Of a stretch of DNA of 33,663 nucleotides, positions 690 through 8,160 are shown piece by piece (the first letter of the stretch is position 1; every line of letters starts with the position of its first letter). A program made the position numbers and the translations under genes. The notes beneath the pieces are model-generated. The model saw only the letters and a list, made by a program, of their open reading frames with translations, had not been told where the DNA came from and made no database searches. This stretch comes from a virus, in IMG/VR virus record IMGVR_UViG_3300022745_000114, positions 1 through 33,663 of that record. The stretch is one strand, 5' to 3'.

Positions 690-1381
690 GCTTGGCCCGC
701 AGGATCCCCGGGTTTCCCGGCTACCTCGTCGACGACGAAGGCAACGTCTGGTCGAAGCCCAGAAAGAACGGCCTACGAACGAAGAAGGCGCTGGATAGCC
801 GGCACTCCCGTGGATACCTGCGGGTTCAGCTCTACGATGCTTTCGGCGACTCGGCGCAGCTGATGGTGCATCGTCTCGTCGCTGAGGCGTTTTTACAGCG
901 CCGCCAGCGCGGGATGGTCGTCCACCATAAGAACGGCGACCTGAAGGACAACCGCGCCGAGAACCTAGAGTGGATTAAAAAGCCCCTCAACCTGAAGTCT
1001 GAGCGGCATCCGCCACCGCGCCCCGTGCACTACACGGAGATCGCGGTGTGCGGTCTCTCGACCTATCGCACGCGCCCGTTCAAGTATTCCGACAAGCGCG
1101 CTGAGGTGACGTGCCTCTCGTGCCTCAAAGTACTTGGCAACCCGCAGCTGAGGCGCGATCATAAGCACGTCTGGGGCAACATTTCGATGGACGGGAACCA
1201 CGCCGTTTGCGGCGTCTGCGCGCGGCACGAAGTCTGGTGCGGCGACGCTAGGGCGGAGTTCAGCGTCTGGGACTGCCCGCTCTGCAAGAGAACTCGAGCA
1301 GCGCTTGAGGAACGGCGGAAACAGACGATGCAGCAGCGCGATCGCGAGAGTCGGCGCGGCCACGCGGAGGAGTACGAATGA
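686..1381 (+). CDS. HNH homing endonuclease, NUMOD4-type, with C-terminal Cys pairs
   Basis: Predicted free-standing HNH DNA endonuclease of 231 residues. The N-terminus (about 7-30, IPGFPGYLVDDEGNVWS) is typical of a NUMOD4 DNA-binding segment. The HNH_3-type core follows: VHRLVAEAFL at 61-70, then VVHHKNGDLKDNRAENLEWI at about 78-97, giving H80/H81, N83, N89 and N93 as the metal and catalytic set. The C-terminal half carries three CxxC pairs (CLSC, CGVC, CPLC) that probably bind zinc and end in a very basic, Arg-rich tail. Such enzymes are selfish elements that nick or cut cognate phage DNA. The start overlaps the upstream stop by ATGA and its own stop overlaps the next start by ATGA. The HNH identification is secure; the role of the Cys-rich extension is inferred. 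Confidence 0.88.
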   Translation: MSLARRIPGFPGYLVDDEGNVWSKPRKNGLRTKKALDSRHSRGYLRVQLYDAFGDSAQLMVHRLVAEAFLQRRQRGMVVHHKNGDLKDNRAENLEWIKKPLNLKSERHPPPRPVHYTEIAVCGLSTYRTRPFKYSDKRAEVTCLSCLKVLGNPQLRRDHKHVWGNISMDGNHAVCGVCARHEVWCGDARAEFSVWDCPLCKRTRAALEERRKQTMQQRDRESRRGHAEEYE

Positions 1382-1578
1382 CCGAAGGCGAAGCAGAGAT
1401 CTTTCGTCGATTCGTTTTTCCGGTCTGTCTCGTCGCGCTACCGGTCGGCCTGCTCACGTTGTGGTTCGCTGTATGGGCGCTTCTTGCGTGGATTTGGCGG
1501 ATGCTTTTTGGTTGCAGCTTTTGCCGGGCAGAGGCTGATCGGCGCGATCAGATCACGGATCACAAGGAGCACCAGTAA
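1378..1578 (+). CDS. Small single-pass membrane protein
   Basis: A 66-residue protein that starts in an ATGA overlap with the preceding HNH gene and ends in TAA right before the methyltransferase starts. Residues about 13-45 form one long hydrophobic stretch (FPVCLVALPVGLLTLWFAVW and onward), followed by a positively charged, His-rich cytoplasmic-looking tail with a CSFC pair. It looks like a one- or two-pass inner-membrane protein. The family is not recognised. Its end carries the AAGGAG ribosome site used by the downstream overlapping genes, so it is probably co-translated with them. The neighbouring shorter overlapping frames appear to be shadows. Confidence 0.6.
   Translation: MTEGEAEIFRRFVFPVCLVALPVGLLTLWFAVWALLAWIWRMLFGCSFCRAEADRRDQITDHKEHQ
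1564..1569 (+). promoter_or_regulatory. Ribosome binding site shared by two overlapping starts
   Basis: AAGGAG lies 11 nt before the GTG at 1581 (methyltransferase frame) and 9 nt before the TTG at 1579 (overlapping +1 frame, directly after the TAA at 1576-1578). Both spacings are usable, so one Shine-Dalgarno sequence could feed two frames. Initiation at GTG 1581 is supported by the methyltransferase motif I beginning at residue 7. Initiation at TTG 1579 is not proven; an in-frame ATG at 1720 is an alternative. Confidence 0.55.
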
Positions 1579-2691
1579 TTGTGGTTCTACTTCGAGGACT
1601 CGACCTCTTCAGCGGAATCGGCGGAATCTCGCTCGCCATCTCTCCGTGGGTCAGACCCGTCGCCTACTGCGAAGTCGACAGCTATTGTCGAAGCGTCCTG
1701 TTTTCACGCATGGCCGATGGATTCCTCACGCGCGCCCCAATCTGGGATGACGTGCGCACACTGCGGGGCGACGACCTCCCCAATATCGACATCATCTACG
1801 GCGGCTTTCCCTGTCAGGATCTCAGCGTTGCGGGAAATGGAGCTGGCCTGGCGGGCGAGCGAAGCGGACTATTTTTTGAGATCGCGCGACTCGCTGGCGA
1901 AACTCGACCCAGCTTCATCTTCCTGGAAAACGTTCCTGCCATTCGGTCCCGTGGGGCCGACGTTGTCGCCGGACGACTGGCCAGCCTTCGGTATGACTGT
2001 CGCTGGGGAGTGCTTTCCGCTTTTGACGTGGGAGCGCCGCACCTTAGAGAACGCTGGTTCCTCCTTGCCAAGCGGAATGATTCCGACTGCGACGGCCACG
2101 GACTCGAAGAGTTCACGCAACAGCACCGTGAAAAATCGCAAGGTAGCTGGCCACTCCGGCCACACGCTGACGGACTTCGTGACGCTCTTTCCGACGCCGA
2201 CAGCGGCGGACTACGGTTCGAGGAACAACGGCCAGCGAGGGGATGGATCGAGCTTCAAAACAGCGGGAGCGCCCAGCCTCTCGACGATGGCGAAACACGG
2301 CCTGTGGCCGACGCCGCGCGCATCGCCGAACGAGAACCGCCAGACCAATCCGACGCCGAGTCAGATCGCCGGCAAGCACGGGATGAATCTCGCAACGGCG
2401 GTGAACATGTGGCCGACGCCACGGGCGAGCGATGGCGAGAAGGGCGGACCGAATCAGCGCGGGAGCAAGGGCGATCTGGCGCTCCCGGCAGCGGTCGTGC
2501 AGTGGGCGACGCCGACCGCGTCGAACAAGATTCGGTCGGAGGAGTTCCGGGACGGCAGGACGCTGAGTCCAGCGGAGGAGGCGGGCGGAAGCCGCAAACT
2601 CAATCCGGAGTTCGTGACCTGGCTGATGGGCTATCCGCGAGCGTGGACGCTGCTCAACCGGGATCTATTTCCTCAAAAGAAGGCGAAGTAA
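1579..2691 (+). CDS. Overlapping +1-frame protein with WPTPxAS repeats and a WLMGYP motif
   Basis: A 370-residue frame lying wholly inside dcm. It resembles conserved hypothetical phage proteins that I have seen beside methyltransferases. Features are an N-terminal segment LDPASSSWKT (109-118), DWPAFGM (133-139), then IPTATATDSK (168-177), FPTPTAAD (204-211), WPTPRASP (243-250), WPTPRASD (278-285), WATPTASN (309-316) and a terminal LNPEFVTWLMGYPRAWT (341-357). The ordered repeats and terminal motif argue against a random shadow frame. SSSWKT lies over methyltransferase motif VI, and each PTP repeat lies over an xADAx repeat. The start is uncertain: TTG 1579 directly after the upstream stop, or ATG 1720. 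No function can be assigned. The alternative is a frame kept open only because the dcm codons force it. Confidence 0.5.
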   Translation: MWFYFEDSTSSAESAESRSPSLRGSDPSPTAKSTAIVEASCFHAWPMDSSRAPQSGMTCAHCGATTSPISTSSTAAFPVRISALREMELAWRASEADYFLRSRDSLAKLDPASSSWKTFLPFGPVGPTLSPDDWPAFGMTVAGECFPLLTWERRTLENAGSSLPSGMIPTATATDSKSSRNSTVKNRKVAGHSGHTLTDFVTLFPTPTAADYGSRNNGQRGDGSSFKTAGAPSLSTMAKHGLWPTPRASPNENRQTNPTPSQIAGKHGMNLATAVNMWPTPRASDGEKGGPNQRGSKGDLALPAAVVQWATPTASNKIRSEEFRDGRTLSPAEEAGGSRKLNPEFVTWLMGYPRAWTLLNRDLFPQKKAK

Positions 2692-3332
2692 ATGGGACAT
2701 CCGAGGCTGCCGGATCCGCCGAAGTCGTGCGAGGCGTGCGGGAAGACCATGTCGCGCAAGAAGTTCAAGAGTCATATGGAGGCACGTTCGACATTCAGTC
2801 GACGCCGATTTTGCGATCGGAAGTGCATGGCGACGGGGATGCAAAAGGAAAATCCGACGCGGTCGGCGTATCTTATGCGCGCCCGGAAACATCTGAAATC
2901 GACCTGCGAGACGTGCGGCACGACCGCGAAACTTTCTATTCACCACGTCGACCTGAACTGGCGAAACAACGCACCATCGAACTTGATGACGCTCTGCACT
3001 TCTTGTCACACCACCTGGCATCACGAGCGGGGTCACATCGTCAAGAAGGCGATCAAACCGCCGTGCGTCTGCTGCGGGAAACCATCCTATCGCATTTCGT
3101 TGTGCAGCACGCATCTGACTCGCTTCCGTCGTTATGGGGATCCCTATCTTCGTCGGATCAGAGTTGGATCATCGTGGCAGCTTGTGAAGGACGCTGGTGG
3201 TCTGAATGGCCAGGAGTCGATAGGGCGGTAGCATCTCACGTAGAGAATCGCGTTGATCGTCTGCGCGCCCTGGGCAATGCCGTCTGCCCGCCGCAGGCGC
3301 GAGAAGCCTTTAAAAGGTTGATAGGTCTATGA
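1581..3332 (+). CDS. dcm: C5-cytosine DNA methyltransferase (Dcm-like)
   Basis: Transfers a methyl group from S-adenosylmethionine to cytosine C5 in DNA, probably masking phage DNA from host restriction. The 583-residue product has SAM-binding motif I LDLFSGIGG (7-15), the catalytic loop GGFPCQDLS with nucleophile C78, motif VI FLENV (114-118), an RERWF motif (156-160) and a C-terminal motif RVDRLRALGNAVCPPQ (about 556-571). The central region (165-545) is a long target-recognition stretch with VADA/SDAD-type repeats and low complexity. The GTG start has AAGGAG 11 nt upstream, and the stop overlaps the next ATG (ATGA). Unusually, the frame from 1579 to 3231 is shared with two other open genes in the +1 frame. 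Methyltransferase activity is very likely; the target sequence is unknown. Confidence 0.92.
   Translation: MVLLRGLDLFSGIGGISLAISPWVRPVAYCEVDSYCRSVLFSRMADGFLTRAPIWDDVRTLRGDDLPNIDIIYGGFPCQDLSVAGNGAGLAGERSGLFFEIARLAGETRPSFIFLENVPAIRSRGADVVAGRLASLRYDCRWGVLSAFDVGAPHLRERWFLLAKRNDSDCDGHGLEEFTQQHREKSQGSWPLRPHADGLRDALSDADSGGLRFEEQRPARGWIELQNSGSAQPLDDGETRPVADAARIAEREPPDQSDAESDRRQARDESRNGGEHVADATGERWREGRTESAREQGRSGAPGSGRAVGDADRVEQDSVGGVPGRQDAESSGGGGRKPQTQSGVRDLADGLSASVDAAQPGSISSKEGEVNGTSEAAGSAEVVRGVREDHVAQEVQESYGGTFDIQSTPILRSEVHGDGDAKGKSDAVGVSYARPETSEIDLRDVRHDRETFYSPRRPELAKQRTIELDDALHFLSHHLASRAGSHRQEGDQTAVRLLRETILSHFVVQHASDSLPSLWGSLSSSDQSWIIVAACEGRWWSEWPGVDRAVASHVENRVDRLRALGNAVCPPQAREAFKRLIGL
2081..2520 (+). 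repeat. Five dispersed degenerate repeats around tGGCCGACGCC, dual-coding
   Basis: Five short copies begin near 2081, 2188, 2304, 2408 and 2502, all variants of tggCCGACgCC. In the methyltransferase frame they read DSDCDG, SDADSG, VADAAR, VADATG and VGDADR. In the +1 frame they read IPTATA, FPTPTA, WPTPRA, WPTPRA and WATPTA. All five keep the same phase relation between the two frames. Spacing is irregular (about 107, 116, 104 and 94 nt), so this is not a simple tandem array. Confidence 0.7.
2692..3231 (+). CDS. Zinc-finger HNH endonuclease nested in dcm (+1 frame)
   Basis: A 179-residue phage HNH endonuclease. Cys pairs C13/C16 (CEACG) and C41/C45 form a first zinc site. The HNH/zinc core is CETCG (72-76), SIHHVDLNWRNNAPSNL (82-98, H84/H85 and asparagines) and LCTSCHTTWHH (101-111). 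A third cysteine cluster, PPCVCCGKP (123-131), is followed by CSTHLTRFRRYGDP. This order is that of a common phage HNH family. ATG 2692 directly follows the TAA of the preceding +1-frame gene and has AGAAGG 8 nt upstream. It lies entirely inside the methyltransferase reading frame, which stays open across it. The motifs make it very unlikely to be a shadow frame. It is probably a homing endonuclease; target unknown. Confidence 0.85.
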   Translation: MGHPRLPDPPKSCEACGKTMSRKKFKSHMEARSTFSRRRFCDRKCMATGMQKENPTRSAYLMRARKHLKSTCETCGTTAKLSIHHVDLNWRNNAPSNLMTLCTSCHTTWHHERGHIVKKAIKPPCVCCGKPSYRISLCSTHLTRFRRYGDPYLRRIRVGSSWQLVKDAGGLNGQESIGR

Positions 3333-4084
3333 ACTCTGATCGCAGAATCGTCTGCTCGTTTTCCTGCGGCGCGACATCTGCTGTTGCGACCAAGCTGGCG
3401 CTGGAGAAATATCCCTTCGCCGAAGTGATCTATATGGACACCGGCAGCGAGCATTCCGACAACAAGCGCTTCATGGCTGACTGCGAGCGGTGGTTTTTCG
3501 GTGATCGACCGCGCCGCATCACGGTGCTGCGCTCGTCGAAGTACGAGGACATCTGGGAGGTGTTCGACAAGACTCGCTGGCTTGTCGGCGTCAAGGGCGC
3601 GCGCTGCACGACGGAGCTGAAGAAGCTTCCGCGGCGCGAGTTTGAAAAACCAGGTGATCTGATGGTGCTCGGATACGATGCGACCGAGACGAAACGCGCC
3701 GAGAAGTTCCGCGCGAATAATCCCGAGTTCGGTCTCTGGTGCCCGCTGATCGAGGCTGGCATCACGAAGGAGATGGCGATCGGCATGCTGCTTTATGCGG
3801 GCATCGAGCTGCCGGCGATGTACCGCCTCGGCTTTCGCAACAACAACTGCATCGGCTGCGTGAAGGGGCAGGCCGGATACTGGAACAAGATCCGTGTCGA
3901 GTTCCCTAAGACCTTCGAACGCATGGCGAAGCTGGAGCGGAAGCTCAACACCGCGATCTGCAAAACAGAGGCTGGAGGCGTGCGAAAAAAAATCTTTCTA
4001 GACGAGCTGGATCCATCCGCTGGCAAGTACGAAGACCTCGACATCAAATGCGGTTTAACGTGTGGGGAGAACGACGGTGAGTGA
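3329..4084 (+). CDS. PAPS reductase / adenine-nucleotide alpha-hydrolase-like protein
   Basis: A 251-residue member of the phosphoadenosine phosphosulfate reductase-like (N-type ATP pyrophosphatase) family common in phages. Visible signatures are the nucleotide-binding loop SFSCGATSA (10-18), MDTGSEH (36-42), ARCTTELKK (91-99), GYDATETKRAEKF (115-127) and a paired-cysteine motif NNNCIGCVKG (171-180). Classical enzymes reduce PAPS; phage members and the related DndC may act in sulfur or DNA modification instead, so the substrate here is not known. Position directly after dcm (ATGA overlap at 3329) suggests a shared DNA-modification or anti-restriction role, which is inference. The stop at 4082-4084 overlaps the next gene. 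Confidence 0.85.
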   Translation: MNSDRRIVCSFSCGATSAVATKLALEKYPFAEVIYMDTGSEHSDNKRFMADCERWFFGDRPRRITVLRSSKYEDIWEVFDKTRWLVGVKGARCTTELKKLPRREFEKPGDLMVLGYDATETKRAEKFRANNPEFGLWCPLIEAGITKEMAIGMLLYAGIELPAMYRLGFRNNNCIGCVKGQAGYWNKIRVEFPKTFERMAKLERKLNTAICKTEAGGVRKKIFLDELDPSAGKYEDLDIKCGLTCGENDGE

Positions 4085-5670: not shown

Positions 5671-6807
5671 TTACTTCGACTTCTTACCGACCAGGAACGC
5701 CACGATAGCGAGCACCAGTCCACCGACGCCAAGCCAGATCCAGCTCGGCAGACTGCCCGGCTGCGGCGGTGGCGGCGGAGGAGGAGTCGGCGCGGTGCAG
5801 GTGTTCACCGTGTCGTCCCACTTACCGGCCGCGTCGCACGTCTGCTTGTGCTCGCCGGTCTGCCCAGCAGGGCAGCCAAGGTCCTTCACCGATCCGATCG
5901 GCTGACCATCGCAGGTCGGCGGCGGCGGTGCCGGAGTGGCCGGAAGGAACGCGACCTCCTCGCCGAAGCCGTCGCAGCCGAGCGGGATCCAGGCGTAGCC
6001 GCTCTGACCCCAGCCGGTGCCCCAGCTGTTCTTCGCGTGGAAGTAGACCTTGCCGTTGACCGTCTTCCAGCCCGTCACGCCGATCGCGTGGTTGGTGCCG
6101 TTGTTCGAGCAGCGCGTCCAGACCGCACCATCCTGCTCAGGCGGAGCGCCCCAGTCGTTGTCGGCACCGACCGTGATCCACGGAACCGTGTGGTACTTGA
6201 AGAGCGCGCACTGAACGTTCTTGACCTTCGCGTCGCCCGAACCTTGGACGACCTCGAAGTCTGGCGCTTGGCCGACCTCGGGGATCTTTTTCGAGCGCTG
6301 CTCGGACGCGGTGTACGGCCAGTCGGATTCGAGTCCCTGACCGACGCGGCTTTGATACTCCTCGCCCGGGTTCAGGTTTCCGCCGTTGCAGCCGTAGTTG
6401 TTGTTGTCGTTGCTGAGGACTTCTTCTTCCGAGAGGTTGAAGTCGCCCTTGCTCTGAACGCGCAGCCAGCTCTCGAACGCGCCCGTCTTACTAAAGTCCC
6501 AGCACGAACCGCACTGGCCCTGGTCGCGCACCGCGCTCACCGGCGACGGTTTTACGTCCGTCAGGAGATCGAACGCGGCCGGCAAATTGTCGCAGGCCGG
6601 ATCGCCCGTCAGATCGAGCGGCTTCAGGTTCGCCTTCTTCAGGCCCTCGCGGTGCAAAAGACCGGTGTGGTACTCCACCGCGCCGGACGGATCGCCAGGG
6701 GCGAAGCCCTTCTTCACGCCCTTGATGACCACGTCGCCATTCGGCGCGTCGGCCATCGCCTGGCCTAAAAAGGCCAGAAACAAGCTCAAAACAAAAATCA
6801 GCCTCAT
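5671..6807 (-). CDS. Secreted, membrane-anchored papain-family (C1A) cysteine protease
   Basis: A 378-residue protein from ATG 6807; the frame is open further upstream but only this start begins with a signal peptide. Order: Sec signal (1-19, MRLIFVLSLFLAFLGQAMA), a short propeptide-like segment, then a C1A peptidase core. The core has VRDQGQCGSCWDF (oxyanion Q96, nucleophile C102), NHAIGVTGW (H240) and KNSWGTGWG (N260), so the catalytic set is complete. Next come a small CDGQ...CPAGQTG...TC cysteine module (about 299-337), a Pro-rich linker, a transmembrane helix (about 354-373) and a GKKSK tail. The predicted topology is a periplasm-facing protease held in the inner membrane. It lies at the end of the late operon beside the amidase. 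A role in lysis, envelope modification or superinfection exclusion is inference. Confidence 0.9.
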   Translation of the reverse strand: MRLIFVLSLFLAFLGQAMADAPNGDVVIKGVKKGFAPGDPSGAVEYHTGLLHREGLKKANLKPLDLTGDPACDNLPAAFDLLTDVKPSPVSAVRDQGQCGSCWDFSKTGAFESWLRVQSKGDFNLSEEEVLSNDNNNYGCNGGNLNPGEEYQSRVGQGLESDWPYTASEQRSKKIPEVGQAPDFEVVQGSGDAKVKNVQCALFKYHTVPWITVGADNDWGAPPEQDGAVWTRCSNNGTNHAIGVTGWKTVNGKVYFHAKNSWGTGWGQSGYAWIPLGCDGFGEEVAFLPATPAPPPPTCDGQPIGSVKDLGCPAGQTGEHKQTCDAAGKWDDTVNTCTAPTPPPPPPPQPGSLPSWIWLGVGGLVLAIVAFLVGKKSK

Positions 6808-6857
6808 AAGGTCTCTCCCGTAAAAATGTCGGTGAACGCGGCCAGTATACAGCCATC

Positions 6858-7037
6858 CTACTTGGGCGGCGATGTTTTCGAAGCGCGCTTTTCGCGCCAC
6901 GCCATCCACTTGTCGAAGCCGTAGAGTGCGGCCTTTTCGACCAAGTCGAGGCCAGCCTCGCGCGCCGCAGCTAACGCCCAAGGCGTCATGGCTACAAGTT
7001 CGACGCCATACTTAAAGGCCAAGATCAATGCGCCCAT
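6858..7037 (-). CDS. Small hydrophobic protein, possible holin-like
   Basis: A 59-residue protein with ATG 7037 in a TAATG overlap with the amidase stop. The open frame extends upstream to 7127 but that part lies inside the amidase gene. The N-terminal 25 residues are hydrophobic (MGALILAFKYGVELVAMTPW), followed by an amphipathic helix and a basic tail (WREKRASKTSPPK). Its size, one membrane-active segment, charged C-terminus and coupling to an amidase suggest a holin or other lysis accessory protein, but no family signature was seen. Confidence 0.5.
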   Translation of the reverse strand: MGALILAFKYGVELVAMTPWALAAAREAGLDLVEKAALYGFDKWMAWREKRASKTSPPK

Positions 7038-7636
7038 TAGGGTGACTCCAGCTTCGCGCGTAGACCATGCATTCCGGCCGCCAAAACGCCACCAGGATCG
7101 CTTTTTCGACCCTTGGGTATGGCGCACTCGTCATGACCGCAAACATTCAGCGCAGGGAACTTTCCGGCCGTCATAAGCCATCTCAGGACAAGGACGATCG
7201 ACGCCTCCTGCTCTGGGGTGGCCTTGTCCCACCAGCACATCTGCCCGTTTAGGGCCGGGCGCTCGGCGATCTCGGCATCCGGCAGGACGATGCCTGTCCA
7301 CGTCTTCTTCTGCCCGGTGAACCGATCCACCTCGAGAATTCCCCACGACAGGAGCGCGACGGCGACGTGGTGACGGTTAGGCGATACGCCGTTCCAGGTC
7401 GCGTCCCCCGCGTGCGCGACGGCCTTGTCCAGCCAGCAGTTCTGGTGCACAGAACCGTCGCGATCGATCGTAAGATGATAACCAATTCCGGTACTTATGC
7501 CGTCATTTATGACGCGCGGCAGGCTACGATCAGCGGTATAATGAACCGTCGCACCACGGCAGTCCAACTCGCCCCGGCTTAACGCCGAAGGGTAGTTGAC
7601 AGATTTTATAGTGGGATACAAGGGGGTCAGCTTCAT
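7037..7636 (-). CDS. N-acetylmuramoyl-L-alanine amidase endolysin (Amidase_2/PGRP fold)
   Basis: A 199-residue zinc amidase that cleaves the bond between N-acetylmuramic acid and L-alanine in peptidoglycan; predicted phage endolysin. Probable zinc ligands are H32 in TVHYTAD, H168 in VCGHDE and D180 in GRKSDPG, which matches the Amidase_2 pattern. IGYHLTID (51-58) and HAGD (75-78) are further conserved family segments. No signal peptide or cell-wall-binding domain is present, so release through a holin would be needed. The ATG (7634-7636) has CGGAG about 8 nt upstream, lying within the oppositely oriented HNH gene. The stop overlaps the following small gene. Confidence 0.92.
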   Translation of the reverse strand: MKLTPLYPTIKSVNYPSALSRGELDCRGATVHYTADRSLPRVINDGISTGIGYHLTIDRDGSVHQNCWLDKAVAHAGDATWNGVSPNRHHVAVALLSWGILEVDRFTGQKKTWTGIVLPDAEIAERPALNGQMCWWDKATPEQEASIVLVLRWLMTAGKFPALNVCGHDECAIPKGRKSDPGGVLAAGMHGLRAKLESP

Positions 7637-8160
7637 TGAATAGCTCCGACGAATCGCCAGTGGAGACCTGGAAGCCGCTCGATGAATTCTACGATGTTTC
7701 GGATCGTGGTCGCGTTCGATCTTGGATTAGGCGTCGATGGAAATTTAGCGAACGCGCCGAATCGCCAACTATTCTTGCTCAGACGCTGGGGAAAAACGGC
7801 TATTTCTACGTTTCACCATGGGCGAAAAAAATCGCCGTGCATCGCCTGATGATGCTCGTCTTTGTCGGCGAACCGCCAAAAAAACGTAATCATGCGGCGC
7901 ATCTAAACGGAATCAAAACGGACAACCGGATTGAAAATCTGATGTGGGCTTCTGCCAAGCTCAATTACGCGCACGCAGTCATCCATGGCGATGTTGAACG
8001 GCAATTCACTTATGAAGAAGCAGAGGAAATCAGAAAAAGAATTCGCTCCGGAGAAAAAGGTCGGCATATCGCAAAGGATCTAGGGGTGCATGAGGCGACG
8101 ATCAGCGCCATCAAACTGCGCCGAACGTATGCTCATTCACCCCATTCAGTCAAAACTTAG
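7636..8160 (+). CDS. HNH homing endonuclease (NUMOD4-HNH-HTH), inserted antisense
   Basis: A 174-residue endonuclease. The N-terminal NUMOD4-like segment is ETWKPLDEFYDVSDRGRVRS (10-29). The HNH_3 core is VHRLMMLVFVG (68-78) with AAHLNGIKTDNRIENLMWAS (87-106; H89, N91, N97, N101), and a C-terminal helix-turn-helix about 125-165 (IRSGEKGRHIAKDLGVHEAT) probably reads the target site. The start is a TTG at 7636 abutting the amidase start on the other strand. The TAG overlaps the stop of the minus-strand gene 8157-8522 by 2 nt. Base composition is visibly richer in A+T than its neighbours. It is the only plus-strand gene in the late region, which marks it as a recent insertion. Confidence 0.88.
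   Translation: MNSSDESPVETWKPLDEFYDVSDRGRVRSWIRRRWKFSERAESPTILAQTLGKNGYFYVSPWAKKIAVHRLMMLVFVGEPPKKRNHAAHLNGIKTDNRIENLMWASAKLNYAHAVIHGDVERQFTYEEAEEIRKRIRSGEKGRHIAKDLGVHEATISAIKLRRTYAHSPHSVKT

Follow-up and report, generated by a model that had tools for sequence, protein, structure and literature searches.

The DNA analyzed here, referred to below as the window, comprises 33,663 nucleotides (positions 1 to 33,663 of IMG/VR virus record IMGVR_UViG_3300022745_000114), and between positions 1564 and 3332 it carries a locus at which one stretch of phage DNA appears, from the sequence comparisons described below, to code for three proteins. The features of the locus are as follows:

1564 to 1569, plus strand: AAGGAG, a Shine-Dalgarno-like site 5' of alpha, read from the sequence; it could serve TTG1579 too.
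1581 to 3332, plus strand: alpha, the frame of a cytosine-C5 methyltransferase (C5-MTase) large subunit (GTG start, 583 aa; PF00145, E = 4e-38 over aa 5–185).
1587 to 2078, plus strand: alpha motifs I–VIII, with the catalytic PCQ at 1809, ENV and RER (HMM; M.HhaI relatives).
1747 to 2691, plus strand: beta, putative recognition region and motif IX, in the +1 frame (probable start by homology; stop depletion; PHROG 1008, E = 2.8e-31).
1915 to 1932, plus strand: SSSWKT of beta, above alpha motif VI (ENV), its beta columns kept beyond alpha codons.
1975 to 1995, plus strand: DWPAFGM of beta (W at 1977, z = -17.9, and P at 1980, z = -14.7, versus synonymous resampling of alpha).
About 2083 to 2520, plus strand: PTPxA-type repeats of beta, which is the constrained frame here (codon scores).
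2599 to 2637, plus strand: motif IX, LNPEFVTWLMGYP, in the beta frame only.
2692 to 3231, plus strand: HNH endonuclease gene inside alpha, read in the frame of beta (PF01844, E = 1.3e-4; PHROG 1271, E = 2.6e-13; nested relatives).
3258 to 3332, plus strand: alpha motif X, RLRALGNAVCPPQ (alignment with relatives; weak match to the GNSVV block of M.HhaI; confident AlphaFold2 helix).

The alpha stop is overlapped by four bases by a PAPS reductase-domain gene (3329–4084). Elsewhere in the window are two more, free-standing, HNH_3 endonuclease genes (686–1381 and 7636–8160), one with NUMOD4, and on the minus strand a papain-family cysteine protease (5671–6981; PF00112, E = 3.7e-32), which is unusual for a phage contig.

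A sequence-only reading of this DNA had described an ordered set of motifs in the +1 frame of a methyltransferase gene (dcm, here alpha), and that description held in most respects. The +1 ORF at 1579–2691 is open throughout (370 codons counted from the TTG), SSSWKT, DWPAFGM, the PTPxA-type repeats and the motif IX block follow one another in the order described, and SSSWKT and WLMGYP lie above FLENV and VRDLADGLS of alpha, respectively. TTG1579 is the mechanical ORF start and probably not the start of the gene, beta of the relatives starting later. The statement that the dcm frame carries all C5-MTase motifs also needed correction. The Pfam C5-MTase match in alpha is confined to motifs I–VIII, among which the invariant columns are C78, Q79, N117, R156 and R158 (so that the catalytic PCQ, the ENV and the motif VIII arginines are present), the only IX-like block in the window is that of the +1 frame, and motif X is not reached until far downstream, at 3258. 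Motifs IX and X are thus both present in the alpha/beta pair, not in the dcm frame alone. Because the dcm frame is without motif IX, the +1 product makes most sense as one of the enzyme's own subunits, rather than as a protein unrelated to it. The link of beta motif IX to canonical C5-MTases is short (21 columns). PHROG 1008, a profile named 'DNA methyltransferase', matches the beta ORF, and the end of the same profile (positions 294–318) has a weak match (E = 0.014) at the motif X end of the alpha frame. Over the PTPxA repeats the alpha reading is a VADATGER-like passenger sequence.

Relatives were gathered by beta-sequence scans of viral and genome contigs, to which annotated phages were added, giving 183 records including the window (with some duplicates, the window itself occurring twice), of which 169 were classifiable. 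The titles of the genome-collection records span many bacterial phyla and are largely MAGs, and host assignment is loose. The two-frame layout, in which alpha (I–VIII) stays open past a motif IX located in the +1 frame, was found in 144 of the 169 classifiable records, and the shift between alpha and beta was +1 in all 144. Motif X follows IX in the alpha frame at a distance of about 65 nt in 120 records and of 134–152 nt in 15. Sixteen records are two-gene forms: alpha stops short of IX, and the second gene carries IX and, where it was detected, motif X too (e.g., Streptomyces phage Samy gp49/gp50, L012). Nine are single fused ORFs. These fused and two-gene forms show, independently of any overlap statistics, that the PTPxA/IX module belongs to the enzyme. 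Other searches were less informative: alpha as a single-sequence query of viral contigs found no relatives, beta as a single-sequence query of the PDB found no match and a beta profile search one meaningless match, and the fused relatives matched Pfam and NCBIfam over motifs I–VIII only, which gave no independent confirmation of IX and X. In Komagataeibacter phage phiKX1 (L184; 1342–2988) the alpha frame is unannotated in GenBank, which lists just beta and the 3' portion of the HNH region, both as hypothetical proteins.

An obvious concern with any such ORF is that it is a non-coding shadow of dcm, its motifs being forced by conserved dcm codons, and the motifs do overlie conserved alpha residues (ENV, LxxLGYD). 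Moreover, in the window alone an open +1 frame is only mildly unexpected given alpha (P 0.01–0.04), although alpha being open given beta (1837–2688) has P <=0.001. It is the comparative stop counts, not the window alone, that make the open +1 frame compelling. For these the codons of alpha were resampled synonymously from each gene's own codons. Over motifs IV–VIII of 120 loci we counted 2 stops in the +1 frame versus 342 expected (range 301–375), and 119 loci had no stop at all versus 11 expected; +1 stops are therefore not a regular occurrence in homologous dcm genes. In the same genes, there was no depletion in the +1 frame upstream of motif IV (186 versus 177 expected) or in the +2 frame (491 versus 499 expected). 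From VIII to IX the count was 0 versus 206 expected, to which ascertainment contributes, because retrieval of the loci had relied on motif IX within an ORF of 60 aa or more.

Substitutions were compared in 133 pairs from 64 loci, and as pairs share loci the counts are not independent. The differences per alpha position 1/2/3 were.142/.059/.289 in the alpha-only part,.182/.100/.350 over IV–VIII,.301/.157/.178 from VIII to the beta stop and.123/.124/.404 after it. Alpha position 1 coincides with position 3 of beta, so that the constraint lies on beta between VIII and IX and on alpha on either side of this segment; along the gene, constraint passes from alpha to beta (VIII to IX) and returns to alpha at motif X. 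Over IV–VIII the average is alpha-like, in agreement with a shadow, and beta is constrained there only locally. This local constraint was apparent from the conservation of beta columns relative to synonymous resampling of alpha, for which the mean z was -5.9 in the SSSWKT region and -7.5 in the DWPAFGM region, versus -2.0 in an upstream control that reflects relatedness alone. Both motifs are conserved beyond the alpha codons, and hence are not mere shadows. In the PTP region of the window, codon scores favor beta above alpha.

The two checks that the sequence-only reading had named, on stops and on substitutions in homologous genes, thus both came out on the side of coding in two frames, with constraint extending in the beta frame from motif VIII to the beta stop. 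Together with the column conservation, the two-gene and fused forms, and the internal ribosome-binding sites described below, these results reject a shadow statistically, and we give that explanation next to no credence. On this comparative evidence the +1 ORF is a real gene, and the alternative raised earlier, that many similar database entries are shadows of dcm, is ruled out.

The start of beta was located from the relatives, in which it lies about 32–62 nt 5' of the PCQ codon. At 40 of 125 loci the beta frame is closed by a stop no more than 80 nt upstream of that codon, and 35 near-stop loci have a start codon inside the interval from stop to PCQ. A Shine-Dalgarno-like site was present at 32 of these 35 clear beta starts, compared with 99 of 482 internal ATG/GTG controls. 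The window belongs to the high-GC loci that have no near stop, and in these the candidate start (ATG at -62) is without a Shine-Dalgarno-like site. The position in the relatives points to ATG1747 in the window, which is most likely the start even though it is without a Shine-Dalgarno; ATG1837 is possible. TTG1579 could share the Shine-Dalgarno of alpha, but is disfavored as the beta start because stops in the +1 frame are not depleted ahead of motif IV.

Programmed frameshifting would dispense with a beta start, in that alpha would shift +1 after VIII into the beta frame and yield a single chain of I–VIII, target-recognition domain (TRD) and IX. Such a mechanism would be in keeping with the single-ORF fused relatives and would need no start codon in the high-GC group, where the ATG at -62 has no ribosome-binding site. 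However, the stop depletion of beta begins well upstream, before motif IV, the clear cases have a start codon with a ribosome-binding site, and motif X could be reached only by a second shift back. We therefore hold frameshifting to be very improbable.

Structure prediction agreed with the division of alpha. The AlphaFold2 model was confident for aa 1–170 and for the C-terminal motif X helix, with aa 183–550 mostly at pLDDT <50, and in a Foldseek search of the PDB the model had M.HhaI as its top match (E = 3.4e-15). Beta modeled alone was poor (pLDDT 58.7), as could be anticipated if the subunit folds on its partner; the result is evidence neither way. In view of this poor model, the assignment of the TRD to beta relies on position, motif IX and the fused homologues, from which we consider that the +1 frame most likely encodes the missing DNA-recognition half of the enzyme.

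The nested HNH ORF at 2692–3231 is an addition to the earlier description. Its ATG directly follows the TAA of beta (TAAATG), and alpha has no stops over its entire length (P for alpha being open given the HNH protein, 0.0002 by within-gene permutation and 0.016 under phage codon usage). The long same-strand overlapping pair that the sequence-only reading had envisaged is borne out, and because the HNH gene is nested too, the coding overlap reaches further, to 3332. The first relatives with a long IX–X gap were only L077 and L159, both of which hold a beta-frame HNH ORF with alpha open across it. As a single-sequence query of viral contigs with the HNH returned no relatives, alignments were used, and the HNH scans then gave many more loci. 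In ten loci the beta frame runs through motif IX to a stop that is followed by the HNH, all of it within alpha (the window, L077, L159, L184, L185, L188, L205, L207, L208 and L209). Motif X was matched 3' of the HNH in eight of the ten, the pattern giving no match in L205 and L209, and a Shine-Dalgarno-like site precedes the HNH at four of six beta–HNH junctions examined.

HNH genes were also found nested in other hosts. In L187 and L220 the host is an ORF that carries both IX and X; in L187 (2054–3464) alpha stops early, the beta frame holds IX and X, and the HNH lies in the +1 frame relative to beta. L183 (Staphylococcus phage CUB-EPI_14) and L186 have a single-chain methyltransferase with the HNH between the TRD and IX. 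In L183, an AT-rich phage, the HNH (2465–2959) is unannotated, nested in the +1 frame within 1318–3123 and preceded by a strong Shine-Dalgarno, AGGAGG. HNH genes also sit in terminase large subunits with inteins and in mycobacteriophage N4/N6 methylases, Lamina13 gp61/gp62 being a pair that is annotated as nested. Seven loci (L229, L231, L244, L248, L251, L256 and L257) have a +1-frame HNH inside terminase large subunit ORFs bearing intein splicing domains, and in L229, the locus where this was checked, the HNH is located between both intein halves. Across the HNH there were no host-frame stops versus 72.6 expected in 16 C5-MTase loci and none versus 23.2 expected in 8 other nested loci, compared with 206 versus 215 expected in the equivalent frame of 16 free-standing HNHs, most of which are AT-rich.

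Group I introns are a common home of HNH genes, and the terminase inteins have the same out-of-frame arrangement, and so the HNH stretch might be removed by an intron or intein, leaving alpha free of it. We found no Rfam family match in the window, L077 or L159 and, by Pfam, no intein domain in alpha, and in no nested locus does the HNH contain a stop in the alpha frame, a demand that intron splicing would not make. Removal by splicing consequently seems to us to have only a slight chance of being correct. A host protein without an intein must then include the out-of-frame stretch as a passenger. The IX–X junction is empty (65 or 134–152 nt) in most relatives and filled in few, and no closely related filled/empty pair of alleles was found among them. 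The HNH is most likely a mobile cassette of the homing type and of the 'hidden HNH' kind, although homing itself is surmised. Somewhat better than an even bet, in our judgment, is the wider proposal that phages carry a general class of HNH mobile cassettes that keep the host frame stop-free, always lie +1 to the host and sit naked inside a working gene, without intron or intein splicing of their own, with two-frame C5-MTases (IX–X junction), single-chain C5-MTases (TRD–IX), N4/N6 methylases and terminase intein linkers as recurrent hosts. If so, the window would have three proteins on one strand in one gene, with a homing-type gene placed 3' of an already overprinted subunit gene.

At the sequence level, we established a partition of motifs between frames, selection on both frames, internal starts with ribosome-binding sites in relatives, and selection on alpha across the HNH. 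With considerable confidence, we interpret the locus as encoding a cytosine-C5 DNA methyltransferase of the phage whose two polypeptides come from overlapping frames, with an HNH gene inserted between IX and X. Alpha would supply the AdoMet-binding and catalytic motifs I–VIII and the C-terminal motif X, and beta the target-recognition region, and so presumably the specificity, together with motif IX. The two would assemble into one active methyltransferase, by analogy with M.EcoHK31I, that may shield phage DNA from restriction. The HNH gene would have been inserted in the frame of beta from the beta stop codon, with its translation probably coupled to beta termination, and alpha would read through to X. 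Between VIII and X, alpha would carry about 370 residues that are apparently a passenger and need only be stop-free. A loop of this size in alpha could lower activity, and the window copy could be decaying.

Several implications follow for annotation. The database proteins with SSSWKT, PTPxA and WLMGxP appear to be the recognition subunit in a large and for the most part unrecognized set of phage and prophage methyltransferases, for which single-frame annotation yields an enzyme without motif IX plus a 'hypothetical' protein, or loses one of the two. The nested HNH cases offer natural material for testing how a second frame is kept open in a gene that has received an insertion, and they widen the range of the hidden HNHs described recently, adding other hosts as well as intein linkers.

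Among known systems, the closest in motif partition is M.EcoHK31I, the small subunit of which is encoded in an alternate frame of the gene for the large subunit. In that two-polypeptide C5-MTase, the large subunit has I–VIII, X and the predicted TRD, and the small subunit IX (Lee, Kam and Shaw 1995, summarized in PMC3404938). The likeness (I–VIII and X in the large subunit, IX in the small) is one of motif partition, and we claim no membership at the level of sequence. The window enzyme differs in being phage-borne, in the nested HNH gene that separates IX from X, and in that its constrained frame between VIII and IX is beta, whereas the TRD was predicted in the large subunit of M.EcoHK31I (a 1995 prediction, which is not defining). 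M.AquI likewise has its catalytic motifs and its recognition/IX region on separate polypeptides, and resembles the two-gene actinophage relatives, but its small subunit contains both IX and X (PMC3404938), and X of the window stays in alpha. PHROG 1008 resembles beta, with the difference that the profile includes the motif X end, which is alpha-frame in the window. Out-of-frame 'hidden' HNHs were described in actinophage DNA methylases (ShiLan domain; Arsenault et al. 2025, PMC11855218; also PMC12613952). The window HNH is similarly out of frame inside a phage DNA methylase, with a stop-free host frame and no detectable intron or intein, and differs in its host, a two-frame C5-MTase, in its site at the IX–X junction and in directly following a nested beta. 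In a literature search outside which most subscription papers lay, we found no paper on overlapping two-frame phage C5-MTases or on out-of-frame HNHs in intein linkers. The two-frame C5-MTase and the hidden HNH each have published precedents, and it is their combination at the IX–X junction, and its breadth, that appear to be new.
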